From contig NZ_QBKI01000005.1 of NCBI RefSeq assembly GCF_003054055.1, positions 310,001 to 374,000 of the forward strand: a stretch of 64,000 bases of DNA. The letters run 5' to 3'. Position 1 is the first letter of the stretch. Every line of letters starts with the position of its first letter. Below are positions 39,065 through 59,349 of the stretch, one piece after another. The stretch comes from Pontibacter mucosus. GTDB taxonomy: Bacteria; Bacteroidota; Bacteroidia; Cytophagales; Hymenobacteraceae. A program made the translations under genes and the position numbers. Under the pieces are notes generated by a model, which was not told where the DNA came from, did not search any database, and was given only the letters and a program-made list of their open reading frames with translations.

Positions 39065-39628
39065 TTACACCCCCAACTTCCGCAGCGCCAGCAGGCAGAG
39101 GGCGATGGAACCGGCTACGTTGATTTTCCCGCTCGTCACCATACTTTCTACTTCCTGCAGGGGTACCTTCAACACCTCGATGTGCTCGCTGATATCCAGG
39201 TCTTGTTCGGCTACTTGGCAGGCATTGCGGGCTATGAAGTAATAAATCTTGTTCGTGTCTTTGGTAGGGTTGTCGATTACCTCCAGCAGTGGCTCCAGGT
39301 GATCGCAGGTATACCCGGTTTCCTCCAGCAGCTCGCGGTGGGCGGCTTCCAGGGGCTCTGTTTCGTGGTCGTCAATCACGCCACCGGGTAACTCTATAAA
39401 TATGTTGCCCGCGGCGTGTTTGTACTGCCGCACAAAAATCACATGGCCATCCTCGGTAAGCGGAAAAACCAGTACCACGTTCGGGCGCACGCTCACGTAG
39501 TAGTCATCCATCACATGGCCGTTTGGCAGCTCCACCTCATCGCGGCGCAGTTTATACCACTTCTCGTTCACCACCATGGCCGATTTCCGGATCTTCCAGG
39601 GCTGGGGTGCTTTACTCTTATCACTCAT
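39065..39628 (-). CDS. Nudix hydrolase, ADP-ribose pyrophosphatase-like
   Basis: This 187-residue protein has the fold and flanks of ADP-ribose/nucleoside-diphosphate-sugar pyrophosphatases (PGGVIDD followed by HRELLEETGY). The Nudix box has eight residues between the first Glu (E of DDHE) and the REL Arg, one more than the classical pattern, although the RELLEETG helix is intact. It is the most downstream gene of the minus-strand sugar region but separated from the methyltransferase by a terminator, so it may have its own promoter. Substrate uncertain. Confidence 0.88.
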   Translation of the reverse strand: MSDKSKAPQPWKIRKSAMVVNEKWYKLRRDEVELPNGHVMDDYYVSVRPNVVLVFPLTEDGHVIFVRQYKHAAGNIFIELPGGVIDDHETEPLEAAHRELLEETGYTCDHLEPLLEVIDNPTKDTNKIYYFIARNACQVAEQDLDISEHIEVLKVPLQEVESMVTSGKINVAGSIALCLLALRKLGV

Positions 39629-39709: not shown

Positions 39710-40531
39710 CTACTCCTTTTTCCCGTTCCGCCGCACCATGTACTCGTTTTTGCCGGATACTTTTTGCTGCACCGCCTCCTGCCAGTCCTGACCGGTGGCC
39801 GAGAGGTACTCCGACTCGTTCCACAGCTGGCTTTGTTTCAGTTGATCATCTGCTTCGAGTATATATAGCTCATGGCCTGGCTGTGCCTTCAGCCGAAAGC
39901 CGCAGGAGCGCATCATGGCCAGTATGGCGGCATGGTTAGGAGCCCACCAGTTGGTTACATCGCCGGCCATCCGTTTTTCGATAAAGGCCATTTTGGGCCA
40001 GCCCTCCTCCAGCATGCGCTTGCGATCGTTTAGCTCCATATCCTCAGGCACCTCGGCCTGTTCCTGACCGGGCATGGTCAGGGTCTGGAACACCAGCTGA
40101 CCGCGGCATTTGTGGGAGAGAATATCAAGCGATAGCAACGGGTAGCGCAGGTGGTAGAGCACGCCCATGTACCAGATCAGGTCGAACTGCCGATCGAGGC
40201 GCGCTACATCATACACCTGCATCTGCCTGAATTCTATTTTATCCTCCAACCCGAATTGCCTGGCCGCCCACTCCGCTTGCCGCAGGTAATGCGGATCCAC
40301 GTCGATGGCCAGCACGTTGGCGCCGCGCTTGGCCAGTTCTATACTATAAAAGCCGGCGTTACAGCCAATATCCAGCACCTCCTGCCCCGACAGGTCCTGC
40401 GGGATAAAAGGCTCCAGTTCCAGCCACTTAAACCTGGGGAAATCGCCCAGAAAATGCTGGGGGGCCGTCTGCTCTCCGTTAGGCAGGTGCAAATTATGAA
40501 ACCAGGGTGCCAGCGCTTCTATCTCCGACAT
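39710..40531 (-). CDS. SAM-dependent methyltransferase, TIGR04290/CmoB-like
   Basis: This 273-residue class I methyltransferase has the SAM-binding motif EVLDIGCNAGFYSIELA at about 50-66 and an acidic residue ending the second strand (LAIDVD). The N-terminus (WFHNLHLPNGEQTAP) and the VLYHLRYPL segment resemble CmoB and the TIGR04290 group, which I recall as neighbours of glycosyltransferase clusters. The substrate may be a sugar or lipid intermediate of the adjacent cluster. The gene is set off by terminators on both sides, so it is regulated separately from the glycosyltransferases. Confidence 0.82.
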   Translation of the reverse strand: MSEIEALAPWFHNLHLPNGEQTAPQHFLGDFPRFKWLELEPFIPQDLSGQEVLDIGCNAGFYSIELAKRGANVLAIDVDPHYLRQAEWAARQFGLEDKIEFRQMQVYDVARLDRQFDLIWYMGVLYHLRYPLLSLDILSHKCRGQLVFQTLTMPGQEQAEVPEDMELNDRKRMLEEGWPKMAFIEKRMAGDVTNWWAPNHAAILAMMRSCGFRLKAQPGHELYILEADDQLKQSQLWNESEYLSATGQDWQEAVQQKVSGKNEYMVRRNGKKE

Positions 40532-40590: not shown

Positions 40591-40636
40591 GCATAAAACA
40601 AAACAGCCGCCCCGGCACTTGGCAGAGGCGGCTGTT
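40591..40636 (-). terminator. Terminator of the sugar operon
   Basis: On the minus strand AAACAGCCGCC (40636-40626) pairs with GGCGGCTGTTT (40610-40600), then a T-rich run. It is 21 bases past the stop of the last glycosyltransferase. Confidence 0.88.
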
Positions 40637-40657: not shown

Positions 40658-41761
40658 TTATACTTCCTGGCCTACTTCCGCATTCGCGAAAGGATTCTCC
40701 AGGGTCATCAGTTCCTCGGCATAGCTAACCAGCTCCTTGGCGCGGTGAGCGGCCGTGTGGTGCGCCAGCACTTTCTTACGGGCCCGCTCCCCAATCAACT
40801 TGCGCTCCGATTTGCAGATCTCGCGCAGGTAGCGGAGTGTGTCCCTGGCGTCGTTGGAGATCAGGATCTCTTCCTCTGGCTTAAAGATGGTTTCCAGTCC
40901 CTCCCAATAGTCAGAGATTATCGGGGTGGCGCAGGCCGCCGCCTCAAAGAGGCGCACACTCGGCGAGTACCCTGCTTTCACCATGTCGGCCCGGGTGATG
41001 TTGAGCGTAAAGCGCTGGCTGTTGTAAAAGTTACGGTGCGCGGAAGGTGGCAGGTGCTGGATATGCTCCACATTCTTCGGCCATTTTATACTTGCCGGGT
41101 ACTGCGGCCCGGCCACCACAAAGCGCCCGAGCGGCCACTGGCGGGCAGCCTCCAGCATCAGCTTGTCGAGCGGCGGCTGGCGGTCGTCGGAGTAAGTGCC
41201 CAGGTAGCCCATGTCCCACTTGCTCTCTAACAGCTCAGGATAGTATAGCTTTGGATCGATAGAGCAGTAGAGCGGCCTGGCCATAGGCGAACCGTACTTT
41301 TGCTCCAGCACGTCCAGGATAGGCCCTCCCGTAAACGATAAGTATAAGTCATACTTCGGGATGAGGTTTGGGTGCAGGTACTCGTAATCGCCCCGATCCA
41401 GTTTAGCTAGTGTTACCGGTGTGTCGATGTCGTAAAAAGCCTTGATACCGCGGGCCGTTTTGATGACCCACTCCCCTACCGGCACCCCTTCCGGTACATA
41501 CGATCCGACGATTACCATGTCGGCCTCGCGCACTTCCTCGGCAAAACCGCTCTTCAGCTCTTCCAGGGAGCTATAAAGCTCGGTGCGACAGAACTCCGGG
41601 TTGGGTAAATCACGGTTTCCGGCATACCAGGGAACATCCCGCTCCAGAAAAGTAACCTGATGGCCCTGCTTATTTAGCTCTCTTACCAGACCTCGGAACG
41701 TGGTGGCATGGCCGTTGCCCCAGCTGGAGGTGATGGATAAGCCAAGAATTACGATATTCAT
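40658..41761 (-). CDS. CgeB-like glycosyltransferase 1
   Basis: This 367-residue cytoplasmic protein has the two-domain GT-B layout of CgeB/DUF3880-type glycosyltransferases. The N-terminal domain opens with a conserved tryptophan-asparagine-glycine stretch (WGNGHATTFRGLV) and the C-terminal nucleotide-sugar side has PSVRLFEAAACATPIISDYWEGLE. Two neighbours share both motifs, so the three arose by duplication. It overlaps the previous gene by 4 bases. Donor and acceptor are unknown. It is the last gene of the operon before the terminator. Confidence 0.85.
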   Translation of the reverse strand: MNIVILGLSITSSWGNGHATTFRGLVRELNKQGHQVTFLERDVPWYAGNRDLPNPEFCRTELYSSLEELKSGFAEEVREADMVIVGSYVPEGVPVGEWVIKTARGIKAFYDIDTPVTLAKLDRGDYEYLHPNLIPKYDLYLSFTGGPILDVLEQKYGSPMARPLYCSIDPKLYYPELLESKWDMGYLGTYSDDRQPPLDKLMLEAARQWPLGRFVVAGPQYPASIKWPKNVEHIQHLPPSAHRNFYNSQRFTLNITRADMVKAGYSPSVRLFEAAACATPIISDYWEGLETIFKPEEEILISNDARDTLRYLREICKSERKLIGERARKKVLAHHTAAHRAKELVSYAEELMTLENPFANAEVGQEV

Positions 41762-42864
41762 GCTAATGCTTTATTTTTAAATGTAACTTTCGCGTACAGC
41801 AGTTTTTCCAGTTGCTCTGCACGATGCTGATAGGTGTGCGCAGCCAGTACTTTCTTATACGCAGCTTCTCCGATTGCTTTTGCCTTTTCTTTAGATAATT
41901 CTGCTATAATCTTAGCCACGTCGGCTCCGCTGTGGGCCACGAGTATTTCTTTTCCGGGTTCGAAGAAGAACTCAATGCCCTCCCAGTAGTCGGTGATAAT
42001 GCAGGCACCTGCCCCCGCCGCCTCAAAAACGCGTGTGGCCGGCGAGAACCCGTAGCGGGCCATACTTTCGCGGCTGATGTTGAGCACGGCCATGGGCGTG
42101 CAGTTAAAGGCATTGTGGTCGTTGGTGTATACGTGGCCTGTGTAGTGCACGTTATCCGTCATCTGCTTATCACCCCAGCCGCTGCCGCCAATAATAAACT
42201 TCTTATTCAGTTCCAGGGCTGCCGGCTTAAGGAAGAACTCGTCCACGCGGGCCTCGCGGTCGGGCAGGCGGTTGCCCAGGAAGGCCAAATCACAGACAAA
42301 ACGCGGGTCAGGTTCCACGGGGAAGTGCGTGGTCGTATCCAAGGCATTGTAAACCGGCACGCATTTTTTTGCGCCCAGCGCCTCGTAGGCATTCACCACG
42401 GGGTTGCCCCCGCCATAGGTAAGCACCATGTCGTAGCGCGGTATCAGCGGCAGGAACGGGTCGCTTGGGTTGTGGTGCACGCGGTCTAAGGTGGCCGGTG
42501 CGTCCACGTCCCAGAACACCACCAGCCGGTCGTCGGTCTGCAGCTTCAGCACTTCGCGCTCCAGCAGCTCGTCGAACACACCCACACCGCTGGCTTTTAC
42601 CACCATGTCGGCGTGCTGGGCGTCCTCCAGGCACTCGTAAACGCACTCCTCCGTGGCTTTGTAAACCACTACTTTGGCCCACTCCGGGTCGTCCATGTCG
42701 CGGTTCTGCTGGCGGTCGTAAGCATCGGGCTCGTAGAAGGTAATCCGGTGGCCACGCTCGCTCAGCGCCCGGATAATGCCCCTGTAGTAGGTAGCCGCGC
42801 CGTTCCAGTAGGCTGACACCAGGCTGGAGCCGAAAAATGCTATTTTGAGTTTGTTATTGTTCAT
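41758..42864 (-). CDS. CgeB-like glycosyltransferase 2
   Basis: This 368-residue paralogue of the flanking genes has WNGAATYYRGIIRALSERGH near the N-terminus and FSPATRVFEAAGAGACIITD in the C-terminal domain. It is coupled on both sides, with 11 bases overlapping the upstream paralogue and 4 the downstream one. The acidic FFEPGKEILV segment corresponds to the usual GT-B sugar-nucleotide contact. A distinct linkage specificity from its paralogues is likely but not readable. Confidence 0.85.
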   Translation of the reverse strand: MNNNKLKIAFFGSSLVSAYWNGAATYYRGIIRALSERGHRITFYEPDAYDRQQNRDMDDPEWAKVVVYKATEECVYECLEDAQHADMVVKASGVGVFDELLEREVLKLQTDDRLVVFWDVDAPATLDRVHHNPSDPFLPLIPRYDMVLTYGGGNPVVNAYEALGAKKCVPVYNALDTTTHFPVEPDPRFVCDLAFLGNRLPDREARVDEFFLKPAALELNKKFIIGGSGWGDKQMTDNVHYTGHVYTNDHNAFNCTPMAVLNISRESMARYGFSPATRVFEAAGAGACIITDYWEGIEFFFEPGKEILVAHSGADVAKIIAELSKEKAKAIGEAAYKKVLAAHTYQHRAEQLEKLLYAKVTFKNKALA

Positions 42865-43996
42865 GTAAAACTTGCGCTTTGGGGGTGAGATAGATTTTTG
42901 ATTCGGCTATACCCAGTTCCTCGCATACTTTCTCCAGCTCGTTTACACGGTGGGCACAGGTATGGCGGCTGCGGATCGTTTCCAGGCCACGCGCGGCCAG
43001 GGTATTTGCTTTTTCAGGGTTGTGAAGTATAGCTTGCAGGTGCTGTTTCATCTCCTCCCCGTTTCGGGCCACCAGGAAATCCTCTCCGGGCGTGAACAGA
43101 TGCTCGGCATCATCCCAGGGTGAGGAAATGAGCGGGATACCGCAGGCCATGGCCTCGAAGGGGCGGATGGTCGGGATGCCCGGCAGCGCCTCCACGTAGG
43201 GCCGGCGCGGCACGTGCACGGTTACTTTATACTTGGCAAACTCCTCCGCCGCTTTGTAGTTAGGCAGCCAGCCCCCATAGGTTATCCCGGCATCCGCCAG
43301 GGCTTTGCGGGCATGCTCCGGGTAGCGCACGCCGTAGATTTTGGCTTTCAGCCCCAGCTCCTTCACAGGGTTTATCAGGAACTCGTGCAGCTCGGCCGTA
43401 CGCTCCTCGTCGCCCCAGTTGCCAATCCAGATCAGGTCGCCTTCATACGTCTCTTGTTCGCGTGGGTAAAAGACGGAGGTGTCGGCGGCCTCATGCCAGG
43501 TCCAGGCTTTCCGGGTCCAGCCTTCCTGCAAGTATAAATCGCGTATCTTCTGCCCGAAGGCCAGCACGCCATCGTAATGGCGCAAATCATACTTGGCCAT
43601 ACTTTCGCGCTCAGTCACGGCGCGGTGGTGGGTATCGTGGAAGAGCAGTCTATACTTGCCGCCGTTGGCCCGGTGTTCCCCGATGCGCTTTACCAGCTCG
43701 TGCTCGTTCCACTCGTGCACCAGCACCAGGTCGGCTTCGGCTAACACATCATCCAGGTTTATACTTTCCAACCTATAAAAGTTGGTGCTGAGGCCAGGGT
43801 AATACGCCTGCAGCTCGTCGAGCTTCTCCTTTCCGTAACCTTCTACCAGATTTTGCAGGCTCCAACCGTTCTCCGGCTCATATACCTGCACCCGGTGCCC
43901 CCGCCCCTCCAGCTCCCGCACAATGCCACGCAAAAAGTGCGCGTTGCCATGGTTCCAGTCAGAAAGTATAGAGTGGTAGAAAAGGACTATATGCAT
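42854..43996 (-). CDS. CgeB-like glycosyltransferase 3
   Basis: This is the 380-residue, first-transcribed member of the tandem trio. The N-terminus has WNHGNAHFLRGIVRELEGRG and the C-terminal half IPTIRPFEAMACGIPLISSP followed by a FTPGEDFLVA strand. It is more divergent from the other two than they are from each other. A 198-base gap with a palindromic element separates it from the GT4 gene upstream, so the element may alter expression of the trio relative to the rest of the operon. Confidence 0.86.
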   Translation of the reverse strand: MHIVLFYHSILSDWNHGNAHFLRGIVRELEGRGHRVQVYEPENGWSLQNLVEGYGKEKLDELQAYYPGLSTNFYRLESINLDDVLAEADLVLVHEWNEHELVKRIGEHRANGGKYRLLFHDTHHRAVTERESMAKYDLRHYDGVLAFGQKIRDLYLQEGWTRKAWTWHEAADTSVFYPREQETYEGDLIWIGNWGDEERTAELHEFLINPVKELGLKAKIYGVRYPEHARKALADAGITYGGWLPNYKAAEEFAKYKVTVHVPRRPYVEALPGIPTIRPFEAMACGIPLISSPWDDAEHLFTPGEDFLVARNGEEMKQHLQAILHNPEKANTLAARGLETIRSRHTCAHRVNELEKVCEELGIAESKIYLTPKAQVLHEQ

Positions 43997-44072
43997 TTCG
44001 TTGTTGGTATGTTCGTTTTGGATTTTAGGGATTTGAAGGAGAAACTGAGTGAAGAAATACGTCTTTCAGTGC

Positions 44073-44148
44073 TGTCATCTTGTAAAGATCCTGGTGGCGT
44101 TGTCGCAAAGCAATCGCTACTGGCTAACAAGATCCTTTCAGGATGACA
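44073..44148 (+). repeat. 76-base palindromic element, copy 3
   Basis: It starts TGTCATCTTGTAAAGATC and ends GGATGACA, forming an imperfect hairpin. It matches 28825-28900 in length and inverted orientation. It lies inside an operon, between the GT4 gene and the CgeB-like trio. Confidence 0.78.
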
Positions 44149-44194
44149 TGGAAAAAGGTCAACGTATAAGTTTCACGCATCCACTCATTCAGAA

Positions 44195-45295
44195 TTATAC
44201 TGTGACTGTTTGCTTGAGCAGCTGCCGGTACACGTGGTCGTAATCCTGGCCCATAGGGTCGGCGGTGTAACCATGGGAACGCTTCACGGCGCGGCAGGCC
44301 ATGATGTTGCGGCCAAACTCATCCTCAATCAGGTTCTTGATCGTGTCGCGCAACTCGTCGGCATCGTTCGGGTTCACGTACTTGGCCGCGTTGCCCCATA
44401 CTTCTGCCAGGCTATCGGTTTTACCCACCACCAGCGCGCAACCCGACATGGCCGCTTCCAGGATGGTCAGGCCGAAAGGCTCATACTTGGCAGGCAAGGT
44501 ATAGATTGAAGCTCTTGACAGCCAGTCCGATACTTCTTTCTCAGTCAGTTGGCCCAGGAAGTGCACATTCTCCAGCTCTATCTCTTTTCCGGTAGCCGGA
44601 TGGCGCGCATCGCCGGCAATGTATACCGGCCAGGGCAGGTCGGAGGCGATGTGTGCAAGCATGGAGATGTTCTTTGCCTCATCCCACACGCGGCCCATAC
44701 TGAACACGAAGGGCTCTTTTCTCCCGAACTGGAAGCTGTGCTGTCCGCGGCCGTTGTACACCACTGTGCTGTTCTGGAAAGGCCCGTACAACGCCTCCGC
44801 CTGGTGCAGCATGGCCTGTGTTGGCGCCACCACCATCGTGGCGTTCTGAAGGCCTTTGGTCACCATTTCCTTGTACTTTTCCCAGGCCTTCGGGGCCTCC
44901 TCGTCCTTCACGGCCCTCCACCACGACAGCACACAAGAGTGCACCACCACCACTGTAGGCACGCCAAAGTTGAGGGCGCCATGCACCAGTCCGTTCAGGT
45001 GTACCAGGTCTGGTTGTACTTCTTCTTTGAGTCTGAGCAGCCACTGGCCCGCCTGCTCTACGTCCTGCCAGGGTTCGTCCATCCACTCCAGTTTGTAGTG
45101 GCTTTCGTAGAGGGTCATGTTGTCGATGTCCTCCACCTGCTGCCGCTGCTCTTCGGTGAGCGGTGCGCCCATGGTAGCCAGGGCCACATGAGTCTTAAAA
45201 GGAGCCAAAGCCCTAATCAGCTCCAGCGCATAGGTCCAGACACCGCCTACGGTGTCGGCCGTCATCAAAATCTTTGAGGGATGTTGTGCCTCCAT
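44195..45295 (-). CDS. GT4-family glycosyltransferase
   Basis: This 366-residue glycosyltransferase is of GT4/GT-B type. The N-terminal domain has the donor-side glycine motif TVGGVWTYALELI, and the C-terminal domain has YEPFGLTILEAAMSG, the E-x7-E motif that binds the nucleotide sugar. No membrane segment is seen. It follows the Gfo/Idh-type gene with a 20-base gap. The family retains anomeric configuration; donor unknown. Confidence 0.9.
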   Translation of the reverse strand: MEAQHPSKILMTADTVGGVWTYALELIRALAPFKTHVALATMGAPLTEEQRQQVEDIDNMTLYESHYKLEWMDEPWQDVEQAGQWLLRLKEEVQPDLVHLNGLVHGALNFGVPTVVVVHSCVLSWWRAVKDEEAPKAWEKYKEMVTKGLQNATMVVAPTQAMLHQAEALYGPFQNSTVVYNGRGQHSFQFGRKEPFVFSMGRVWDEAKNISMLAHIASDLPWPVYIAGDARHPATGKEIELENVHFLGQLTEKEVSDWLSRASIYTLPAKYEPFGLTILEAAMSGCALVVGKTDSLAEVWGNAAKYVNPNDADELRDTIKNLIEDEFGRNIMACRAVKRSHGYTADPMGQDYDHVYRQLLKQTVTV

Positions 45296-45315
45296 ACTCC
45301 TATCTTCCGTAAATA

Positions 45316-46365
45316 TTATCTTCCGTAAATTTTATCTAATACTTCTGCTACTTTTACATACTCTTCGGCTTCCTCGCTAAAACCTTCGCCCTTGGCTACT
45401 CGCTCAGCCCAGGCCACGCCGGCACGGCCCATCCACTCGTCAGGCGGGGCGCAGAGTTGCTCGGTTTTGGTGCCGTAGTAGCGCTCGGCCACAAAGTCGT
45501 AGAAGGAGCCGTTTACGTTTTTAAACGCCACGCCCCCGTTTGTGCCGTAAAAAGTGGCGCTGATAATGGCCTCTTGTCCGGCCGGCAGGTTCCAGGAGCA
45601 GCTCAACTGCAGGAGCGTATTGCCCTCCAGTTCGATGTGCGCGGCGGCATAGTCCTCTACTTTGCCTTCTGCCATACTTATCGGTTTGCCTTTGGCGTAG
45701 AGATGGCTCTGCACCTGCTTTACCTCCGGGAAATTCATGCTCCACAGGGCCAGGTCCACCAGGTGCACGCCCAGGTCTATCACGCAGCCGCCACCCGAAA
45801 GCTTTGGCTCGTAGAACCAGGCTTTGTCGGGGCCATAGGCGTTGTGGAACACCAGCTCGATGGCATAAATCTGCCCCAACTCGCCACTCTGCACCACCTT
45901 GTAAACTTCCTGCATGGCCTTGGTATGGCGATAGGATAAGTCTACCCCTAGGAGTTTATTCTGCGCACGCGCAGCCTCTACCACGCGCTTGGTCTCCTCC
46001 ACATTGCGCCCCAGCGGCTTCTGGCAGAACACGTGCTTGCCTGCCTTTAGGGCTAGGGTACTTTGCTCGGCATGAAAGGCGCTTGGCGTAGCGATAACGA
46101 TTCCGTTCACCTCTGGCTGCTGCAGCATGGTCTCCAGCGAGGACACCTGCTTTGCCCCAGGCTCACTTTTCAGTGCCTCTTCGGCGTTTTGGGGTGCTGT
46201 ATCGGCGATATAGGCTACCTCTCCGGCCTTATACTTTGAGATTGCTTCCATCCGGTTACGCCCGATCCAGCCAACGCCCAGGAAACCGAGCCTTGGTGTA
46301 TGACCAAAGGTAGTAGAAGAAGATGCTGAAGGGGCTTCCGCCTTGTCAAGTATAGTTTCCGTCAT
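45316..46365 (-). CDS. Gfo/Idh/MocA-family oxidoreductase
   Basis: This 349-residue NAD(P)-dependent dehydrogenase has the Rossmann glycine motif GFLGVGWIGRNR near residue 28, FCQKPLGRN with the catalytic Lys and a C-terminal alpha/beta substrate domain with ADLGV-like CVIDLGVHLVDLAL. The family oxidises or reduces sugars, inositols and nucleotide sugars. It starts 2 bases after the zinc dehydrogenase, suggesting linked action on the same sugar. A 25-residue Ser/Thr-rich N-terminal extension precedes the fold. Confidence 0.9.
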   Translation of the reverse strand: MTETILDKAEAPSASSSTTFGHTPRLGFLGVGWIGRNRMEAISKYKAGEVAYIADTAPQNAEEALKSEPGAKQVSSLETMLQQPEVNGIVIATPSAFHAEQSTLALKAGKHVFCQKPLGRNVEETKRVVEAARAQNKLLGVDLSYRHTKAMQEVYKVVQSGELGQIYAIELVFHNAYGPDKAWFYEPKLSGGGCVIDLGVHLVDLALWSMNFPEVKQVQSHLYAKGKPISMAEGKVEDYAAAHIELEGNTLLQLSCSWNLPAGQEAIISATFYGTNGGVAFKNVNGSFYDFVAERYYGTKTEQLCAPPDEWMGRAGVAWAERVAKGEGFSEEAEEYVKVAEVLDKIYGR

Positions 46366-46367
46366 GT

Positions 46368-47381
46368 TCAGTAGGTTATAAGGGCTTTCACAAAACCGTC
46401 CGGGCGGCTTGTGAGGTGTTCGAATGCTTTTGCAATTTCTTGTAACGTATAGGTGTGAGTGTAGAGCTTTTCCGGGTTCATCCGGCCCGACTCCACAGCC
46501 GCTACAGCTTCTCTTATGCCTTTGATGTACTCTTTCGGGTCGCGCTCGTGGGCATTGATCACGTCCAGGCCGCGCCAGTTCCAGAGCTGGATGTTCACCT
46601 GCCGCATGCCGTCCTGATGGAAACCGGCGATCACCAGCTTGCCGCGCTCGGCAGTAAGCTCACCGGCCAGGTTCAGCGGCCACTCCTTTCCGGTGCACTC
46701 TATTACGCGTTCGCAGAAGTTTCCGTTTGTTAGTTCCTTTACTTTTTCTATAATTTTATAGTGATCATCCATTTTAATCACCTCGTCTGCGCCACATTCT
46801 TTTGCAACTTCCAAAGAGAACTCCCGCTGCGACACGGCAATAACCCGTGCTCCGGCATCCTTGGCCAGCTGAATCAGGAGCGCCCCCAGGAAACCGATGC
46901 CCAGGATGGCCACCGTCTGCCCGGCCTGCAGGTCGCTGCGGCGGAAGATGTTCATGGCGCAGCCCAGCGGCTCACCGGGGAAGGGCTTATCCTGCAAAGA
47001 ATCGGGCAGTTTCACCACCTTATCGGCATCGGCCACATCATACTCGGCGTAGGCGTTGTAAGACAAAGCAGCCACGCGATCACCGGGCTGCAACTGGTCT
47101 ACCCCTTCGCCTACGGCGTCTACCACACCCCAGCCTTCATGGCCCGGGTTGCCGGCCGCTACTGGGTAGCTGAACCACTCGCGCCCCTCCCACACCGGGA
47201 TGTTGGAGGCACAAAGGCCGCAGCCCTGCAGCCGGATGCGCACCTGCCCGGCTTTTGGCTCGGGCAGGGCGGTTTCCTCTATTTTTATACTTTGCGGCGC
47301 TACCAGCACGGCGGCTTTCATGGTGGTGGCGTGGGTGCTGGGCACTGCTGGTTTATGTGTTGTAAGCGTTTCTTGCATCAT
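46368..47381 (-). CDS. Zinc-type medium-chain dehydrogenase
   Basis: This 337-residue MDR dehydrogenase has the catalytic-zinc Cys in GCGLCASN, the GHEGWG His-Glu and the cofactor motif AILGIGFLGALLIQLA. It lacks the four-cysteine structural zinc lobe of classical alcohol dehydrogenases, like many sugar-alcohol forms. It sits 1 base after the fusion gene and 2 bases before the Gfo/Idh gene. The start may be either of two adjacent ATGs (47381 or 47378). The substrate is presumably a polyol or keto sugar. Confidence 0.88.
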   Translation of the reverse strand: MMQETLTTHKPAVPSTHATTMKAAVLVAPQSIKIEETALPEPKAGQVRIRLQGCGLCASNIPVWEGREWFSYPVAAGNPGHEGWGVVDAVGEGVDQLQPGDRVAALSYNAYAEYDVADADKVVKLPDSLQDKPFPGEPLGCAMNIFRRSDLQAGQTVAILGIGFLGALLIQLAKDAGARVIAVSQREFSLEVAKECGADEVIKMDDHYKIIEKVKELTNGNFCERVIECTGKEWPLNLAGELTAERGKLVIAGFHQDGMRQVNIQLWNWRGLDVINAHERDPKEYIKGIREAVAAVESGRMNPEKLYTHTYTLQEIAKAFEHLTSRPDGFVKALITY

Positions 47382-47382
47382 G

Positions 47383-49446
47383 TTAAGCTACTGCGGCTTT
47401 GTTTACAGGTTCTTCTTCTTTTTCCAACAGGGAGGAAAGCGCAATCGGTACTTTCAGGCCGCGGTGCTCGCACAGCCACTGGTAAAGCCTGGCTACTCCT
47501 TCCTGCACGTCATGCTTCGGATACCAGCCCGTCGCCTCCCTGAATTTGCGGATGTCGGACACATAATAGTGCTGATCGCCCGGACGCCAAGCGCCGAACT
47601 GAAGAGGGACTTTAGCCCCCCGGAACTTGCCGATAGTTTTGAGCAGCTCCAGCAAACTCACAGTGTTCGCAGGTCCTCCGCCTATGTTAAAGGCTTGTCC
47701 TTTTATACTATCCATGTGCTCCTGCGCCAGCAGGAAAGCATCCACCAGATCCTCTACAAACAGGATATCCCGCACCTGCTTGCCGTCGCCATAGATGTTG
47801 ACCGGCTCGCCCTCGATGGCCTTGATGGCAAAGTGCGCCACCCAGCCCTGGTCTTCGTTGCCGTACTGGTGCGGGCCGTAGATGCAGCTCATCCGGAACA
47901 CCGTCATCGGCAGGTTATAGGTGCGGGCATAGTCTATCACGTACTGGTCGGCGGCACCCTTCGAGCAGCCGTAGGGGCTGTGGAAATCGAGATGGCGCCT
48001 TTCGGAAATGCCATGTTGCTTGGTACCGGTATCGGCCGGGTAGTAGCGCGATCCGTTGGAGACAAACTCCATGTCCTCCAGCCCTCCGTATACTTTGTTT
48101 GTGGAGGTAAACACCAGTGGCGGCGGGTTTTTCTGTTGCCGGATCGCCTCCAGCACGTTAATGATACCGCGCGCGTTTATTTCAAAATCATTGATAGGAA
48201 AATTAAGGGAAGTGGTAACGGCCACCTGAGCGGCAAAGTGAAAGACCTGCTCGGCACGCTTCATTACCTGGCGCACGGCCTGTAGATCGCGGATATCGCC
48301 CACGTGTACTTCCAGCCTGTCGCCATAGGTGTGGTGGAGCCAACGCAGGTTCTCCTCCACCCCGTCGCGGCTAAGGTTATCGAACACCAGCACGCGCTTG
48401 CCTTGCCCCAGCAGGCGCTTGGCCAGGTTTGTGCCCACAAAGCCGGCCCCTCCCGTGATAAGGATGTAGGGTTCGGTGTTCTCATCCAGGCTGCGCTTCA
48501 GGTAGTTGAGTTCGCTAAGCTTCTCGATGCCGTGGCGTGCCCAGAGGCGGTAGAGCAATTTGCTGCTTCCGTCCTCGCGTTTCAATCCGAAATAGTACTC
48601 CCGCTCGTCCAGGTGAAAGCCGCCAACAGTGGGCAGTTCCAGGCTTAGGTCTTTTACAGCGTACCAGTAGATGCGGGCAACGTCGGCTTTTAGCACCTCT
48701 TTAAACTCCTGCAACTGCTTAAACTCATCGTGCTGCCAGGTAGAGAACCCGGCCTCCGTGATCCAGAGCTCGGCTTTGCAGTTGTTGCGCTCCATTACCT
48801 CGCGCACGGCCTGTATCCTGTCCTCCCAGCCGTCCCAAAGCTGATCGAACACATACGGGAAACCGTGGACACCCACTGCGTCGATGTATTGCATCACGCC
48901 ATGGTCGTACATGGTCTGCAGCCAGTTCGGGTCTATCGGGCTCATGCCGCCGAGCAGGGTTTTCTTGCCCAGTTGCTTGCACCAGTAGGCCGCGCCTCCT
49001 ACCATCTCGGCAAACTTGTTCCAGCCGTAGTCGTGGGTAAAATCATACTCTGTGATGTTGTTCGGCTCGTTCCAGAGCTCCACCCACTCAAAGTGATCCC
49101 CATGCCTGGCGATGAACACATCCAGAAAATCGGCATACGCTTTCTTGTCCTTGGGTGGGGAGGAGGTGCGGGGCTTCTCGCCTATACTTGGCGGGGTATA
49201 CAAAAAGCAGGGAAGTATGCGTACCTCCCTAGCCAGCGTCGGGATGAGCCAATCGTACCATTCCTGCCCTTCGGGGGTATAGTAGTCGGCCCACGAAACA
49301 CCGGTGCGCAGCTCTTGCACCCCCAGCTCCCTCAGGCTGGCCAGCGTTTCTTCTACATGCTCATACTCACCGGGTCTGAACCACTCCACCAGGCCCACCA
49401 CGGGGAGCGTTGGCTTGCTGTTCAAAGTCTTGTCGTCTATTTTCAT
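47383..49446 (-). CDS. Glycoside hydrolase fused to nucleotide-sugar epimerase/dehydratase
   Basis: This 687-residue two-enzyme protein has an N-terminal TIM-barrel glycoside hydrolase resembling GH39/GH5-type clan A enzymes (about 10-310), with WVELWNEPNN (acid/base E127) and LWITEAGFST carrying the probable nucleophile. The C-terminal domain (about 330-665) is an extended SDR epimerase/dehydratase with the cofactor motif ITGGAGFVGTNLA and catalytic Y492/K496 (YGCSK). No signal peptide is present, so the hydrolase part would act in the cytoplasm, which is unusual. It may process an intermediate made by the neighbouring enzymes. A 40-base gap follows the upstream epimerase. Confidence 0.85.
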   Translation of the reverse strand: MKIDDKTLNSKPTLPVVGLVEWFRPGEYEHVEETLASLRELGVQELRTGVSWADYYTPEGQEWYDWLIPTLAREVRILPCFLYTPPSIGEKPRTSSPPKDKKAYADFLDVFIARHGDHFEWVELWNEPNNITEYDFTHDYGWNKFAEMVGGAAYWCKQLGKKTLLGGMSPIDPNWLQTMYDHGVMQYIDAVGVHGFPYVFDQLWDGWEDRIQAVREVMERNNCKAELWITEAGFSTWQHDEFKQLQEFKEVLKADVARIYWYAVKDLSLELPTVGGFHLDEREYYFGLKREDGSSKLLYRLWARHGIEKLSELNYLKRSLDENTEPYILITGGAGFVGTNLAKRLLGQGKRVLVFDNLSRDGVEENLRWLHHTYGDRLEVHVGDIRDLQAVRQVMKRAEQVFHFAAQVAVTTSLNFPINDFEINARGIINVLEAIRQQKNPPPLVFTSTNKVYGGLEDMEFVSNGSRYYPADTGTKQHGISERRHLDFHSPYGCSKGAADQYVIDYARTYNLPMTVFRMSCIYGPHQYGNEDQGWVAHFAIKAIEGEPVNIYGDGKQVRDILFVEDLVDAFLLAQEHMDSIKGQAFNIGGGPANTVSLLELLKTIGKFRGAKVPLQFGAWRPGDQHYYVSDIRKFREATGWYPKHDVQEGVARLYQWLCEHRGLKVPIALSSLLEKEEEPVNKAAVA

Positions 49447-49486
49447 ACTGATTTGAATCCTTTAATTGATGTACACGGAAGGGTGA

Positions 49487-50605
49487 TTAAACGGTGAGGC
49501 CGCGGGAAGCCAGCTCAGCACTCGCCTCGCTGACGCGGTCGTAGGCGATCTGGCCCTCAAGCCAGCCAGCCAGCTCTTCCAGACCGGCGTTAAACTCCAC
49601 CTGCGGGTAAAAGCCCAGCACTTCCCTGGCCAGCGAGATATCGGCGTAGCAGTGGCGGATATCCCCTACCCTATACTTGCCCGTTATCTCCGGAAGGAGG
49701 TCTGACTTGCCCATCACCACCGCCAGGCGCTCCCCAATCTCGCGGATGGTGTAGTTGTTGCCGCTGCCCACATTAAACACGCGCCCGTTCGCCTCCTCCT
49801 TCTCCATGGCCAGGCGGCAGGCCAATGCCACATCACGCACATGCACAAAGTCCCGCTGCTGGTAGCCATCCTCGAAAATCATCGGAGAGTTGTTGTTCAG
49901 CAGGCGCGAAGCGAAAATGGCCAGCACCCCGGTATAAGGGTTCGAAAGTGCCTGCCGGGTGCCGTACACGTTAAAGAAGCGCATGGCTACGGTTGGAATA
50001 TTGTAGGCACGGCCCACCATCAGGCAAAGGCGCTCCTGGTCATACTTGGAGAGGGCATATACCGAGGATAAGCTAGGGGCTTTTGTCTCCGGGGTAGGTA
50101 CCGGCTGCAGCTGCTCGCCTTGCGCATTGTACAGTTCCCAATCGGCTGCTTTCAGCTGCTCCAGTGGCCGCTCCTGCGCAGTGGTCTGTTCACCCGCGGC
50201 GCTTTTGTAAAGCCCCTCCCCGTAGATGCTCATGCTGCTGGCCACCACCAGCTTCTTCACAGGCTTCTTGATAAGGGCCTCCAGCAACACCGTGGTGCCT
50301 ATGTTATTCACGTCGGTATACTCGCGCAGCTCGTACATACTTTGCCCTACCCCTACCATCGCCGCAAAGTGGAACACGTAGTCCACACCCTCCAGCGCAC
50401 GTGCCACATCCTCCGGGTTGCGTACATCCCCAATTAGCAGCTCTACGTCTTCATGCAGGTACGCCGGCCGCTGGCAGTCTTTGCCATGTACCTGCTCGCT
50501 CAAATTGTCCAATGCTCTTACGGCATACCCCTGCTGCAGCAGTTCATCGGCCAGGTGAGAACCGATAAACCCAGCGCCGCCGGTAATCAATACCTTGTCT
50601 TTCAT
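49487..50605 (-). CDS. NAD-dependent nucleotide-sugar epimerase
   Basis: This 372-residue extended SDR has ITGGAGFIGSHLADELL at the N-terminus, a VDYVFHFAAMVGVGQS strand and YALSK catalytic residues. A roughly 45-residue insert (around 150-185, Gln/Glu/Pro-rich) precedes the Tyr. The RDFVHVRDVA segment is typical of GalE/WbpP-like 4-epimerases. It lies upstream of the fusion gene, so two epimerases are made from this operon. Product sugar unknown. Confidence 0.88.
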   Translation of the reverse strand: MKDKVLITGGAGFIGSHLADELLQQGYAVRALDNLSEQVHGKDCQRPAYLHEDVELLIGDVRNPEDVARALEGVDYVFHFAAMVGVGQSMYELREYTDVNNIGTTVLLEALIKKPVKKLVVASSMSIYGEGLYKSAAGEQTTAQERPLEQLKAADWELYNAQGEQLQPVPTPETKAPSLSSVYALSKYDQERLCLMVGRAYNIPTVAMRFFNVYGTRQALSNPYTGVLAIFASRLLNNNSPMIFEDGYQQRDFVHVRDVALACRLAMEKEEANGRVFNVGSGNNYTIREIGERLAVVMGKSDLLPEITGKYRVGDIRHCYADISLAREVLGFYPQVEFNAGLEELAGWLEGQIAYDRVSEASAELASRGLTV

Positions 50606-50681
50606 AGTTTTAAGTTTACTTTCTGTTTAGTTTGTACTTTTATTTTGGGTGCTGATATGGTTAGATAGGCTCTAGCCGGAG

Positions 50682-51386
50682 TTAAAACACCTGCGCCGTG
50701 GGCCTGAGGGTGATGTTGTTGATGGATACTCCCGGTGGCTGACGTAGGGCATATAAGACGGCATCTGCTACTTCTTCGGGGGTGAGGGCACCATACCCTA
50801 TACTTTCCACCGTCTGGCTGCCGGATAGGGTATTTTCGAAAAAGGCAGTGTCGGTAACTCCCGGTGCTACTACCGTTACCCGGACATTGGGCAATACTTC
50901 CTGCCGCAGCGTTTCGGCAATTACCTGCAGGGCGGTCTTGGTAGCAGCGTACACGCCTCCGTACGCGTAGGCCTGTCCTGCCGCTACCGACGACACGATC
51001 ACGACATCGCCGGCGCCTGCCTCCTGCATGCCCGGTACAAAAGCCCGGATCAGGCGCAGGGTGCCCATCAGGTTGGTGTTGATTACCTGTTGCCACTTTG
51101 CCGGGTCTCCCTCCGTAAGTTTCTCGTGCACGCCCAGGCCGGCGCTGCACACAAGTATGTCTGGTGCGCCCAGCTGTTGCTGCACCGCTTCGAAAAGGTT
51201 GTCTATGGCTACGGCATCGGAAACATCACAGGTGAGGCAGATGCTTCCTTGGGGTAGGTTATCGGTCAAGTGCAGATCGGCAATGGCAGTTTGAACTCCG
51301 TCTTCAGTGAGCTGCGCGGCAATGGCTTTACCTATGCCCGATCCTCCTCCGCTCACTATCGCTCTCTTACCCTTAAGTTGCTGCAC
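50682..51386 (-). CDS. Short-chain dehydrogenase/reductase
   Basis: This 234-residue classical SDR has SGGGSGIGKAIAAQL for cofactor, a DILVCSAGLG strand, catalytic Tyr/Lys in YAATK and a substrate loop near the C-terminus. The start is GTG at 51386, since an in-frame stop lies four codons upstream and no ATG precedes the Rossmann strand. It is the first gene of the minus-strand sugar operon. It could act as a 3-ketoreductase on a sugar or lipid, but may also be unrelated. Confidence 0.85.
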   Translation of the reverse strand: MQQLKGKRAIVSGGGSGIGKAIAAQLTEDGVQTAIADLHLTDNLPQGSICLTCDVSDAVAIDNLFEAVQQQLGAPDILVCSAGLGVHEKLTEGDPAKWQQVINTNLMGTLRLIRAFVPGMQEAGAGDVVIVSSVAAGQAYAYGGVYAATKTALQVIAETLRQEVLPNVRVTVVAPGVTDTAFFENTLSGSQTVESIGYGALTPEEVADAVLYALRQPPGVSINNITLRPTAQVF

Positions 51387-52315: not shown

Positions 52316-52894
52316 TTGGATACTTCCCCCTACCGCATTTTCCTCATCCGCCACGCCAGGCCTAAGGTGGAGCGAAAGGGCTTTTTTAACGCGACGGCTG
52401 CCCGGCAGTACATCTCTGACTACGACACCGCCCAGGTGGAGGCCTTTGTACTGCAGCACGAGGCGATACCTTTTAAGGAGATAAAGAAAGTATACTGCAG
52501 CACGTTGGTCCGCTCGCAGCTAACGGCACGCGCCATTTTCGGGGAGGACGTGGAACTGCACATCGACGAGACTTTCCGGGAGTTTGAGCGCCGCATTTTC
52601 ACGCTGCCCTGGCTGCACCTGCCCATCAAAGTATGGCTGCTGAGTGCCCGCCTGCTCTGGTTTCTGGGCTTCAACAACCGCGACATCGAAACCTTCCGGC
52701 AGGCTCGCACCCGCGCCAGAAAAGCCGCCGAACTCCTCGACCGTGACGCCCGCCGGAGCCATACCACCGTGCTGGTTGCCCACGGCCTGCTCAACAGCTT
52801 TATCCGGCGCGAGTTAAAGCGCCTGGGCTGGCAGGAAAGTATAAAAGGCGGCAGCGACTTCCTTTCTGTAGATATGCTAATCCTTCCTAAGTAA
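52316..52894 (+). CDS. Histidine phosphatase family protein
   Basis: This 192-residue member of the phosphoglycerate mutase-like superfamily has the phospho-acceptor motif IRHARPK near residue 11 and a second His in VAHGLLNSFIRREL. A helical cap lies between. It starts with TTG at 52316: the frame is open only from just after a TAG at 52295-52297 and no ATG or GTG precedes the motif. The first Arg-His pattern is RHA, a slight variant of RHG. Substrate unknown. It follows the GNAT gene by 54 bases. Confidence 0.85.
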   Translation: MDTSPYRIFLIRHARPKVERKGFFNATAARQYISDYDTAQVEAFVLQHEAIPFKEIKKVYCSTLVRSQLTARAIFGEDVELHIDETFREFERRIFTLPWLHLPIKVWLLSARLLWFLGFNNRDIETFRQARTRARKAAELLDRDARRSHTTVLVAHGLLNSFIRRELKRLGWQESIKGGSDFLSVDMLILPK

Positions 52895-58031: not shown

Positions 58032-59349
58032 TTATACGCTGAAGGTAAGCATCGCCCTGCTGGCGTTGTACCTGTTTTACTTCCTGGTGCTGCGGGGGCA
58101 GAACAGCTTTCGCTTTAACCGGGCTTACCTGCTTGTAGCCCCCATCATCGCGCTGCGGCTCCCATTAATCCAATGGCCTGCCATACTTGCCCCGGATGCC
58201 GCCGTTTCTGAGATACTGCAGGCTGTGCAGCTTGGCGAGGTGGTCGTAACCGGTTACCGGCCTGAAGCTATGGCGGCAACAGATATAGCCTCTTCCCTGA
58301 GCCCTATACTTGTAGCTTTATACTTTGTCGTCATGGCGATTGTGCTTTTTAAATTGGTGCGGCAGCTGTGGCAAATCCGGCAACTGAAGGCACAGGCTAT
58401 ACTTGCCAGGCAGGCCGAAGGGATAAAAGTATACCACCTGAGCAGCCCATACCCAGCCTTTGCTTTTGGAAAAAACATCTTCCTGAGCAAGCAGCAGGAG
58501 CAGCTACACCCGCAGGAGCGGGAGCAGGTGCTGGCCCATGAACTGGCGCACGTAAAGTATGGCCATACTTGGGACGTGCTGCTCTATGAGGTGCTCTCGG
58601 CCATACTTTGGTTTCACCCTGCTGTGTGGCTATTAAAGCAGGAGCTGCGCGATGTGCACGAATACCAGGCCGATGCCGCCGTGGTGAGCCGACACCAAAC
58701 GCAAAAGTATACCTCGCTCCTCTCCAGGGAGGCCCTGTTAAGTATGGGTTTGCCGGTGGGAAGCTACTTTACTAAGCCTCAGGTGCTCAAGCGCCTGCGC
58801 ATGCTGCAACTGCAAGGGCACAAACCCGGTTGGGTACGCCCGCTGCTTGCCGCCCCGCTCCTGCTGGCTTTAGCTTTTCTGCTCGCGCGCCAGCAAGCCA
58901 CCGCCGAAAACCAAAGTATAACTGCAGCCCCCACCTCTGAGGTACTCCCGGCTGTAACCCTTCCAGACGCTGAAGCGAATGCTCCATCCGGAGAACGGCC
59001 TTATACCGGAGAACGGCCTTATACCGGAGAACGGCCTTATACTTACGTGGAGCAGATGCCACAATTTAAAGGTGGTGATGTGGAGATGATGAAGTTCCTG
59101 GGCATGAACATCCGCTACCCTAGACAGGCGCAGGAGGCCGGCGTAGAAGGTTTAGTAGTTTTAAGTTTTGTTGTTGACCGGGATGGCTCTTTATCCAATT
59201 TCCAGGTATTAAAATCCCTGGGCCAAGGTACGGACGAGGAGGCCCTGCGTGTGGTGGAAAGTATGAATGGCAGTTGGGAGCCCGGCAGGCAAAACGGAAA
59301 AGCCGTACCGGTACGGTATACCCTGCCCATCCGCTTCGCCATCAAATAA
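58015..59349 (+). CDS. BlaR1-like M56 metalloprotease with TonB C-terminal domain
   Basis: This 444-residue inner-membrane protein has membrane spans near 5-25, 40-60 and 95-115, then a zinc protease domain with HELAHVKYGH (about 178-187) and a downstream Glu in HEYQAD. A fourth span lies near 280-298 (LLAAPLLLALAFLLA). The periplasmic tail holds three GERPYT repeats followed by a TonB_C domain (VEQMPQFKGGD onward). The penicillin-sensor domain of true BlaR1 is absent. Signal sensed by the TonB domain is unknown; cleavage of the BlaI-like repressor is the presumed output. Confidence 0.92.
   Translation: MEALLNYTLKVSIALLALYLFYFLVLRGQNSFRFNRAYLLVAPIIALRLPLIQWPAILAPDAAVSEILQAVQLGEVVVTGYRPEAMAATDIASSLSPILVALYFVVMAIVLFKLVRQLWQIRQLKAQAILARQAEGIKVYHLSSPYPAFAFGKNIFLSKQQEQLHPQEREQVLAHELAHVKYGHTWDVLLYEVLSAILWFHPAVWLLKQELRDVHEYQADAAVVSRHQTQKYTSLLSREALLSMGLPVGSYFTKPQVLKRLRMLQLQGHKPGWVRPLLAAPLLLALAFLLARQQATAENQSITAAPTSEVLPAVTLPDAEANAPSGERPYTGERPYTGERPYTYVEQMPQFKGGDVEMMKFLGMNIRYPRQAQEAGVEGLVVLSFVVDRDGSLSNFQVLKSLGQGTDEEALRVVESMNGSWEPGRQNGKAVPVRYTLPIRFAIK
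58990..59043 (+). repeat. Three-copy 18-bp tandem repeat inside the M56 gene
   Basis: The unit GGAGAACGGCCTTATACC occurs three times without gaps (last base differs in the third copy) and encodes GERPYT three times. It links the membrane part to the TonB_C domain. Confidence 0.95.

Follow-up and report, generated by a model that had tools for sequence, protein, structure and literature searches.

The subject of this analysis is a 64,000-nucleotide stretch of the Pontibacter mucosus genome (contig NZ_QBKI01000005.1, positions 310,001 to 374,000 of the forward strand), hereafter the window, and within it a cluster of nine tightly packed open reading frames, all on the minus strand at 40658-51386, with a methyltransferase gene beside them (Table 1). 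An earlier note on this DNA, made from the sequence alone, had called all nine genes, and all are there, with family labels that stand throughout, including the Epimerase domain in a fused gene. The spacing had been described as very tight, which is right for the gaps of 40, 1, 2 and 20 bases and the overlaps of 11 and 4 bases but omits the wider gaps of 76, 198 and 126 bases; from the SDR gene to the methyltransferase gene, the intervals run 76, 40, 1, 2, 20, 198, -11, -4 and 126 bases. The predicted terminator after the third CgeB-like gene is present as well, as a strong hairpin followed by T-rich sequence, with a minimum free energy of -39.0 kcal/mol over a 96-nucleotide stretch (computed with no shuffle control). 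By composition, the cluster is hardly distinct, with a G+C content of 0.564 versus 0.544 in the remainder of the window.

Comparison with relatives changes the earlier picture in three respects: the methyltransferase becomes a core member, the SDR gene proves to be confined to Hymenobacteraceae, and the epimerase half of the fusion is predicted to be of the C2 (tyvelose) type. It also brings into view components that are invisible in the window alone, namely, inositol-phosphate synthase (MIPS), UDP-glucuronate decarboxylase (UDP-xylose synthase, UXS), and a radical-SAM replacement of two dehydrogenases.

Table 1. Features of the locus in the window, and the permuted hydrolase in related loci (coordinates within each locus)
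Feature	Position	Strand	Basis
SDR-family oxidoreductase, 234 aa, GTG start	50682..51386	-	adh_short, 141 bits
EPI, nucleoside diphosphate (NDP)-sugar epimerase, 372 aa, C4-epimerase-like	49487..50605	-	Pfam Epimerase, 181 bits
Fusion, N-terminal 322 aa, predicted PslG-like (beta/alpha)8 glycoside hydrolase domain	48481..49446	-	predicted fold, alignment
Fusion, C-terminal half (FEPI), predicted CDP-tyvelose-type NDP-sugar C2 epimerase	47383..48480	-	~295 bits to 9rl0/1orr
ADH, zinc-binding dehydrogenase, 337 aa	46368..47381	-	ADH_zinc_N, 73 bits; ADH_N
GFO, Gfo/Idh/MocA dehydrogenase, 349 aa	45316..46365	-	GFO_IDH_MocA, 84 bits
GT4 glycosyltransferase, 366 aa	44195..45295	-	Glyco_trans_1_4 and Glyco_transf_4
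CgeB1, CgeB-like glycosyltransferase 1	42854..43996	-	PF13524, 133 bits
CgeB2, CgeB-like glycosyltransferase 2	41758..42864	-	PF13524, 136 bits
CgeB3, CgeB-like glycosyltransferase 3	40658..41761	-	PF13524, 129 bits
Terminator-like hairpin with T-rich tail, between CgeB3 and the methyltransferase gene	40595..40636	-	computed fold
TIGR04290 SAM-dependent methyltransferase, 273 aa, core member	39710..40531	-	342 bits versus cut-off 300
Nudix hydrolase, possible accessory member	39065..39628	-	81-base gap to the methyltransferase gene
Permuted stand-alone hydrolase (predicted)	L048 15204-16085; L105 2523-3452; L110 4376-5353; L120 11952-12875

Conservation and spread of the cluster

A single scan of genome contigs with the fusion protein as the query recovered 48 loci, 37 of which carry EPI, fusion, ADH, GFO, GT4, CgeB1, CgeB2 and CgeB3 in the same order and on one strand. 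Hymenobacteraceae account for 30 of these and Geomonas/Citrifermentans, at 49-65% identity, for 7; the closest locus, that of Pontibacter chinhatensis, is 97-99% identical per protein across ten genes. The genes are clearly not scattered singly among relatives, the cluster being kept together, and this shared eight-gene order, which is no product of chance, bears out the proposal of one dedicated pathway made in the earlier note. We found no match to a characterized exopolysaccharide or glycolipid locus. The SDR gene is present in 23 of the 37 complete clusters, all 23 from Hymenobacteraceae.

Of the remaining 11 loci, one is a short contig that stops behind ADH (L035), two are related clusters with rearrangements in Acidobacteriota (L047) and Bdellovibrionales (L048), seven (L049-L055) contain relatives of the epimerase type only, and the last (L056) is what is left of a decayed cluster in Pontibacter. 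In this remnant, from Pontibacter qinzhouensis (L056, 10001-12464), a broken piece of the fusion gene and an intact GT4 gene are found with the same flanking genes. Six of the loci with epimerase-type relatives, all from metagenome-assembled genomes (L049-L054; Omnitrophota, Elusimicrobia and others), have a C2-epimerase-like gene near a UXS-like one and lack the remainder of the cluster; an EPI-like gene joins the pair in five of the six, a grouping that hints at one nucleotide sugar shared by the three.

The earlier note had treated the methyltransferase as an extra neighbor, a view that has to be abandoned. Because this protein passes the curated cut-off of TIGR04290 (meth_Rta_06860; match over residues 3-224 of 273) and its gene accompanies the cluster across phyla, it is a core member. 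Within the stretches fetched, the gene is found with 26 of the 37 complete clusters; the other 11 belong to Rufibacter or Sabulibacter, and in two genomes of this group that were read further (L099, L100), it follows CgeB3 at a distance of ~4-5 kb, a span occupied by other genes. It is very likely that the cluster, with the methyltransferase included, constitutes one biosynthetic pathway. Matches to TIGR04290 above the cut-off were obtained for 48 of 150 Hymenobacteraceae genomes and for one of 296 genomes sampled from all over Bacteroidota, which is the window's own; for 3 of 247 genomes in an Acidobacteriota sample, with one more match below the cut-off; for 4 of 247 in a phylum sample centered on a Citrifermentans genome; and for none of 14 control genomes (the counts take in the center genomes).

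In rearranged or extended form, the cluster is also found in Acidobacteriota, in Bdellovibrionota, and on plasmids of rhizobia and other proteobacteria. A search with CgeB2 returned 148 plasmid records at 80% coverage or more, mostly from Sinorhizobium and Rhizobium, the further hosts being Roseomonas, Paracoccus, Azospirillum, Ensifer, Bradyrhizobium, Tistrella, Geminicoccaceae, Sphingobium and Xanthomonas; annotated copies were examined on 15 plasmids, and the copy on pSymB of S. meliloti 1021, at 242-258 kb of NC_003078 (L082), was examined by tblastn. The pathway is present in at least five phyla, in bacteria of soil and plants. Trees were built for CgeB2 (61 rows, one of them, L112, a misassigned fourth CgeB paralog) and for the methyltransferase (50 rows); the copies from Bacteroidota fall into a single group with good support, and those from Geobacterales likewise. 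The single Bacteroidota group, together with the rarity of the system in the phylum, fits a scenario in which the cluster would have entered Hymenobacteraceae once, from outside.

Identity among the three CgeB-like proteins is 26-33%, whereas each is 49-68% identical to its counterparts from other phyla (for CgeB1, 49-63% versus 26% to both CgeB2 and CgeB3); they therefore represent three old ortholog groups, probably with three specificities. Some relatives possess a fourth paralog, ~42-45% identical to CgeB3, that the window lacks. No solved relative of CgeB2 was detected at E 0.01. The likeness to CgeB, a protein of the Bacillus subtilis spore crust, goes back to the earlier label, the domain here being PF13524 (Glyco_trans_1_2), and CgeB itself was not directly compared.

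The cluster is real, conserved, and undescribed in the open-licence papers searched. That literature returned no paper on TIGR04290, on the TIGR04295 family discussed below, or on six single S. meliloti pSymB locus tags, which were guessed from map position, and, judging by the titles listed, nothing that concerns the cluster. The matching passage of PMC12542648 concerns one locus tag of a sugar-transport protein, and that of PMC4274787 concerns the putative cytochrome oxidase RHE_PB00063-66, not studied there; neither passage mentions the cluster.

Two dehydrogenases or one B12 radical SAM protein

In several lineages, the ADH and GFO pair is replaced by a B12 radical SAM protein of TIGR04295 (B12_rSAM_oligo), encoded between the epimerase gene(s) and GT4, which is the site of ADH and GFO in the window. 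The replacement is seen in Azospirillum (722 bits to the TIGR04295 model), Tistrella, Geminicoccaceae, Bradyrhizobium, G531 of Acidobacteriota, and the genomes G665 and G743, both from the Citrifermentans-phylum sample. TIGR04290, passed by the methyltransferase of the window, and TIGR04295, carried by relatives of the cluster and bearing a name that ends in 'oligo', are both hypothetical equivalogs with no assigned function; the window differs from the carriers of TIGR04295 in having ADH and GFO in its place.

The two arrangements alternate among 63 locus rows, defined by the presence, at set identity thresholds and within the stretches fetched, of at least four of six core genes: 56 rows have ADH and GFO without the radical SAM gene, 7 have the reverse, and none has both or neither. 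Four rows (L099, L100, L101 and L103) were judged to be second fetches of L032, L034, L027 and L017, leaving 52 + 7 distinct rows, and L099 and L100 are only partly covered by 20-kb stretches. The window, the short contig L035 and the remnant L056 stand outside this set; G496 (L091), with a methyltransferase, a permuted hydrolase, and none of the six core genes in the 39 kb examined, falls below the threshold. Among the plasmid records, a close relative of ADH is found in 136, one of GFO in 135, and the radical SAM protein in 9, with disjoint sets of genera. On a tree of CgeB2 and CgeB3 with 36 rows (35 loci and the window, hand-chosen to thin near-identical Bacteroidota, with the misassigned L112 excluded), the label requires six changes, at least four of which are forced by well-supported branches, and is about as scattered as shuffled labels. 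At E 1e-60, TIGR04295 is absent from all 150 Hymenobacteraceae genomes, the window's included, and has no match in the controls of that search either, although the model does recognize the Azospirillum protein.

When two dehydrogenases can be swapped for one radical enzyme, the simplest explanation is oxidation followed by reduction at the same carbon, that is, epimerization, and we consider it slightly more likely than not that ADH and GFO together invert one hydroxyl. Radical-SAM enzymes that epimerize sugars are known, NeoN being an example. The main alternative is C-methylation; B12 radical-SAM proteins are best known as methylases, which weighs against epimerization, and the argument on the other side is indirect, namely, that two dehydrogenases could hardly replace such a reaction. 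Several further points weigh against the proposed exchange or this reading of it as well. The swap could mean something other than epimerization, the Gfo/Idh and zinc-dehydrogenase families acting also on sugars; one Agrobacterium plasmid has ADH and is not in the GFO list; and in Roseomonas marmotae, neither ADH and GFO nor the radical SAM gene is present in the 29 kb examined. Among 146 CgeB2 plasmid records (E 1e-60), the counts by genus leave one record unexplained, a Roseomonas that is probably R. marmotae, the lists not having been matched record by record. Compared with the model of inositol 2-dehydrogenase, GFO scores 119 bits, under the cut-off of 355.

The fused hydrolase and its permuted form

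The fusion gene joins a PslG-like barrel, as predicted, to an epimerase of the CDP-tyvelose type. The N-terminal half matches no Pfam family at E 0.1; its AlphaFold2 model (mean pLDDT 84.3, pTM 0.85, from a 26-row alignment) is an eight-stranded barrel, for which the best Foldseek match is PslG (5bx9, E 2.2e-16; next other protein, 4.6e-10). A second structure comparison also ranks PslG at the top (Z 26.7, root-mean-square deviation 3.5 over 297 residues), followed, at Z 24.1 and below, by GH1 and GH39 enzymes. In the model, Glu127 (in an NEP motif) is located just past strand 4 and Glu231 (in WITEAG) on strand 7, the positions of the acid/base and the nucleophile in clan GH-A. We predict, from this model, a PslG-like (beta/alpha)8 hydrolase and claim neither GH39 nor beta-xylosidase activity. 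PslG itself, a GH39 endoglycosidase of Pseudomonas aeruginosa, resembles the domain in these two glutamates and in being a hydrolase encoded amid biosynthesis genes; unlike PslG, to which it is 18-19% identical, the domain has no membrane segment and no Pfam match and is fused to an epimerase. One or both catalytic glutamates are gone in 3 of the 26 aligned members (L027, L033 and L035), with the cluster retained, so that hydrolase activity is not essential everywhere. In these three and in L102, where the glutamate(s) are lost while the epimerase half stays, the hydrolase domain looks like a pseudoenzyme in the making.

The C-terminal half, FEPI, resembles CDP-tyvelose 2-epimerase (TyvE/CPa2E; 1orr, 9rl0) over the whole domain, and among solved SDR epimerases, the whole fusion scores 294 bits to 9rl0 and 1orr versus 139 bits to the next, GalE 4zrm. 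When aligned to 9rl0, FEPI keeps the STNKVYG and SPYGCSKG segments, and the TNK segment, the catalytic Thr/Tyr/Lys and the DQGW stretch are conserved; a passage of PMC13098431 names the TNK segment and the catalytic residues of this enzyme. Differences from TyvE include, apart from the fusion to a hydrolase, a VAM segment that reads VAV. Of the cytidine-binding aromatics of CDP-using C2 epimerases named in a passage of PMC7851689 (Trp207, Trp210 and Phe211), the alignment has Trp207 and Phe211 kept and His at the position of Trp210, so the carrier nucleotide may not be CDP. On these alignments, FEPI is, by predicted activity, of the C2 (tyvelose) epimerase type. The separate epimerase, EPI, has UDP-glucose 4-epimerase 4zrm as its best solved relative (161 bits).

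In relatives, proteins annotated as 'beta-xylosidase' or 'glycosyl hydrolase' and encoded beside MIPS correspond to the fused barrel cut before strand 4 and rejoined. Residues 120-296 of the window protein align with residues 3-184 of the Azospirillum protein (E 6e-29), and residues 17-116 with its residues 197-294 (E 1e-18), the swapped order being seen again in a second comparison. Such copies, 65-75% identical to the Azospirillum protein, occur in four phyla; in alphaproteobacteria, they lie beside or near MIPS and a phosphatase gene. The single-sequence model of the permuted form is poor (mean pLDDT 54.5), so the case for permutation is made from sequence, and by this standard, the stand-alone hydrolase is predicted to be a circular permutant of the fused barrel. 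The idea that the fused and permuted forms are mutually exclusive failed, G665 having both, with the fused copy devoid of recognizable catalytic motifs. G564 combines the fused hydrolase with an unpermuted stand-alone copy after the methyltransferase gene. A search of viral contigs for the permuted hydrolase gave no match.

Acceptor, product and competing explanations

The connection to inositol comes from the neighbors of the cluster in other lineages. Genes for MIPS and a histidine phosphatase adjoin it in Sinorhizobium, Ensifer, Roseomonas, Azospirillum, Bradyrhizobium, Paracoccus yeei and Sphingobium; the Azospirillum MIPS reaches 543 bits to TIGR03450, under the cut-off of 638. In Sphingobium, close or overlapping genes for the phosphatase, methyltransferase, hydrolase, MIPS, ADH, GFO and a Nudix-type protein form one run, and the run that diverges from it encodes both epimerases, the four transferases and UDP-glucuronate decarboxylase; we read the first as the half for the acceptor and the second as the half for the sugar donors. 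MIPS of a different type is encoded near the cluster in one genome each of Hymenobacteraceae (L102), Rufibacter (L100) and Acidobacteriota (L112), the proteins of L102 and L112 being 88% and 60% identical, respectively, to that of L100. Within Hymenobacteraceae, MIPS is found in 30 of 48 genomes with the methyltransferase versus 24 of 102 without it, weak evidence given that the Fisher test (p 7.7e-6) ignores relatedness, and lies within 12 kb of the methyltransferase in 6 of the 48. On most plasmids examined, Azospirillum excepted, the annotated cluster includes UDP-glucuronate decarboxylase; the genome of the window has a UXS homologue on another contig (47% identity, 308 bits). The combination of a mycothiol-type INO1 homologue, a phosphatase and a GT4 in relatives is reminiscent of the mycothiol pathway, which uses INO1, the GT4 enzyme MshA and a phosphatase. 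Unlike that pathway, the cluster has four transferases and a methyltransferase, the GT4 of the window reaches 30 bits to the MshA model (cut-off 462), and MIPS is missing from the window's genome.

Several other genes keep company with the cluster. The Nudix gene adjoins the methyltransferase gene in most Pontibacter, in Hymenobacter and Rufibacter loci, and in one acidobacterial locus (L092); Nudix-type genes also end the clusters of Sphingobium (annotated as ADP-ribose pyrophosphatase; 28.8% identity over 118 amino acids, E 8e-7) and Roseomonas marmotae, so the gene in the window may belong to the cluster. A histidine-phosphatase-family gene at 52316-52894 of the window, divergent from the cluster, stays beside it in most Pontibacter loci; since the phosphatase linked in other phyla falls, broadly, in this family too, the two may be distant counterparts. 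Next to alphaproteobacterial copies stand stress-type genes, those for extracytoplasmic function (ECF) sigma factors, Mn catalase, Ku/LigD, Hsp20, cold-shock, BON and DUF1003 proteins, and treZ, a company that, counted with no frequency control, suggests a role in stress or desiccation survival. A protein of ~585 amino acids (L077 2001-3749; L104 15292-17052) is encoded in the vicinity of the cluster in Sinorhizobium, Ensifer and Roseomonas, and also in two genomes from the Citrifermentans-phylum sample; in Sinorhizobium, it has no match in Pfam at E 0.1 or in NCBIfam at E 1e-15, and by eye, one stretch of it resembles a phosphoribosyltransferase loop. A nucleotidyltransferase-family protein is encoded in or beside the cluster in Bradyrhizobium (L118 7900-8706) and Rhizobium etli (L078 2851-3657; PF14907, 33 bits). 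Elsewhere in the window, at 58988-59042, there is a perfect 18-base tandem repeat in three copies.

With the gene families, fusion, synteny, distribution, replacement and permutation (the last from sequence) as the basis, we propose, with confidence and doubt in even balance, that the locus is a version of a mobile pathway for a small soluble O-methylated hetero-oligosaccharide built on an acceptor that is probably of the inositol type. The chemical steps, acceptor and role would be as follows. EPI (C4 type) and the C2-epimerase half of the fusion would convert NDP-sugars, including UDP-xylose made by UDP-glucuronate decarboxylase (encoded in the cluster in most proteobacterial versions examined and elsewhere in the window's genome), to rarer epimers; GT4 and the three CgeB-like transferases would each add one sugar, four at most, to a small acceptor that is probably inositol or inositol phosphate; the zinc dehydrogenase would oxidize a secondary alcohol and the Gfo/Idh enzyme re-reduce it from the opposite face (or the reverse), a net epimerization equivalent to that performed, in other lineages, by the B12 radical SAM protein. 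The TIGR04290 enzyme would attach an O-methyl group, the PslG-like domain could trim or recycle mis-made glycans, and the product might act as a stress or desiccation solute.

Much of what weighs against this proposal bears on the acceptor and argues, instead, for the same pathway working on a non-inositol core, such as a sugar, a polyol, a glycerol-type core or a lipid, with MIPS, the phosphatase and the permuted hydrolase as an optional, lineage-specific set that decorates the product. There is no MIPS (PF01658) match in the window's genome, which leaves the acceptor here uncertain, nor in two Geobacterales genomes and Adhaeribacter aquaticus (7 of the 10 genomes tested have one); 18 of the 48 methyltransferase-positive Hymenobacteraceae genomes lack it; and fused-hydrolase clusters of Rhizobium, Paracoccus AK26, Tistrella, Geminicoccaceae and Xanthomonas have none in the stretch read. 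The MIPS genes near the Hymenobacteraceae copies could be general inositol-lipid genes that are adjacent by chance, and the catalytic residues lost from some of the hydrolases count against the proposed role of that domain. The notion that inositol is universal to the cluster accordingly failed, given the absence of MIPS here and in several cluster-bearing genomes. Nevertheless, MIPS is linked to the cluster in three phyla and in two types, and it directly precedes ADH and GFO in Sphingobium, with one opposite-strand gene between them in Paracoccus yeei; moreover, free inositol is available in soil and plants. Weighing these points, we put a non-inositol acceptor well below an even chance, while inositol as the acceptor in general falls just short of one and is less likely for this strain.

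The choice between a soluble and a surface product is less balanced. The earlier note had favored a soluble glycoside over a capsule, and the lack of an obvious membrane segment in any of the ten proteins (the highest 19-residue Kyte-Doolittle mean, 1.89, is that of the zinc dehydrogenase) fits a soluble product, which seems to us the better reading too. An exported surface glycan or exopolysaccharide, with its machinery encoded elsewhere, would account for PslG, encoded in an exopolysaccharide operon, being the closest structural relative of the hydrolase domain and for the polysaccharide pyruvyl transferase encoded nearby in Sinorhizobium and P. yeei. However, the annotation of the clusters on the 15 plasmids includes no flippase, polymerase, exporter or priming transferase, and none of the ten window proteins belongs to a flippase, polymerase or exporter family of the Wzx/Wzy or ABC type (a survey that covered these proteins and not the remainder of the window or genome), so that we deem this explanation improbable. 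A catabolic cluster for the uptake and breakdown of plant glycosides would draw on hydrolase, Gfo/Idh and zinc-dehydrogenase families that are common in sugar and inositol catabolism, but glycosyltransferases, NDP-sugar epimerases and the methyltransferase are conserved alongside them, and the cluster persists where the hydrolase has lost its glutamate(s), which makes breakdown a most improbable function.

Returning to the biosynthetic pathway with an inositol-type acceptor, its fullest form, which, taken whole, we regard as rather unlikely, would be a new family of methylated inositol pseudo-oligosaccharides, stress protectants spread horizontally through at least five phyla, in which a hydroxyl is inverted either by a redox relay or by a cobalamin radical-SAM epimerase, with at least four replacements, and the helper hydrolase occurs both fused to the sugar-nucleotide C2 epimerase and as a natural permutant of the clan GH-A barrel. 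If this is true, the relay and the radical enzyme would be two unrelated solutions to one chemistry. From the repeated exchange with a pair of dehydrogenases, a reaction is predicted for a B12 radical-SAM family that is uncharacterized, and two NCBIfam families of unknown function, TIGR04290 and TIGR04295, are tied, along with three PF13524 groups, to one pathway. The permuted hydrolase offers a ready test of the tolerance of barrel enzymes to permutation, and the metabolite itself would be expected in Sinorhizobium meliloti, Rhizobium etli and Azospirillum.

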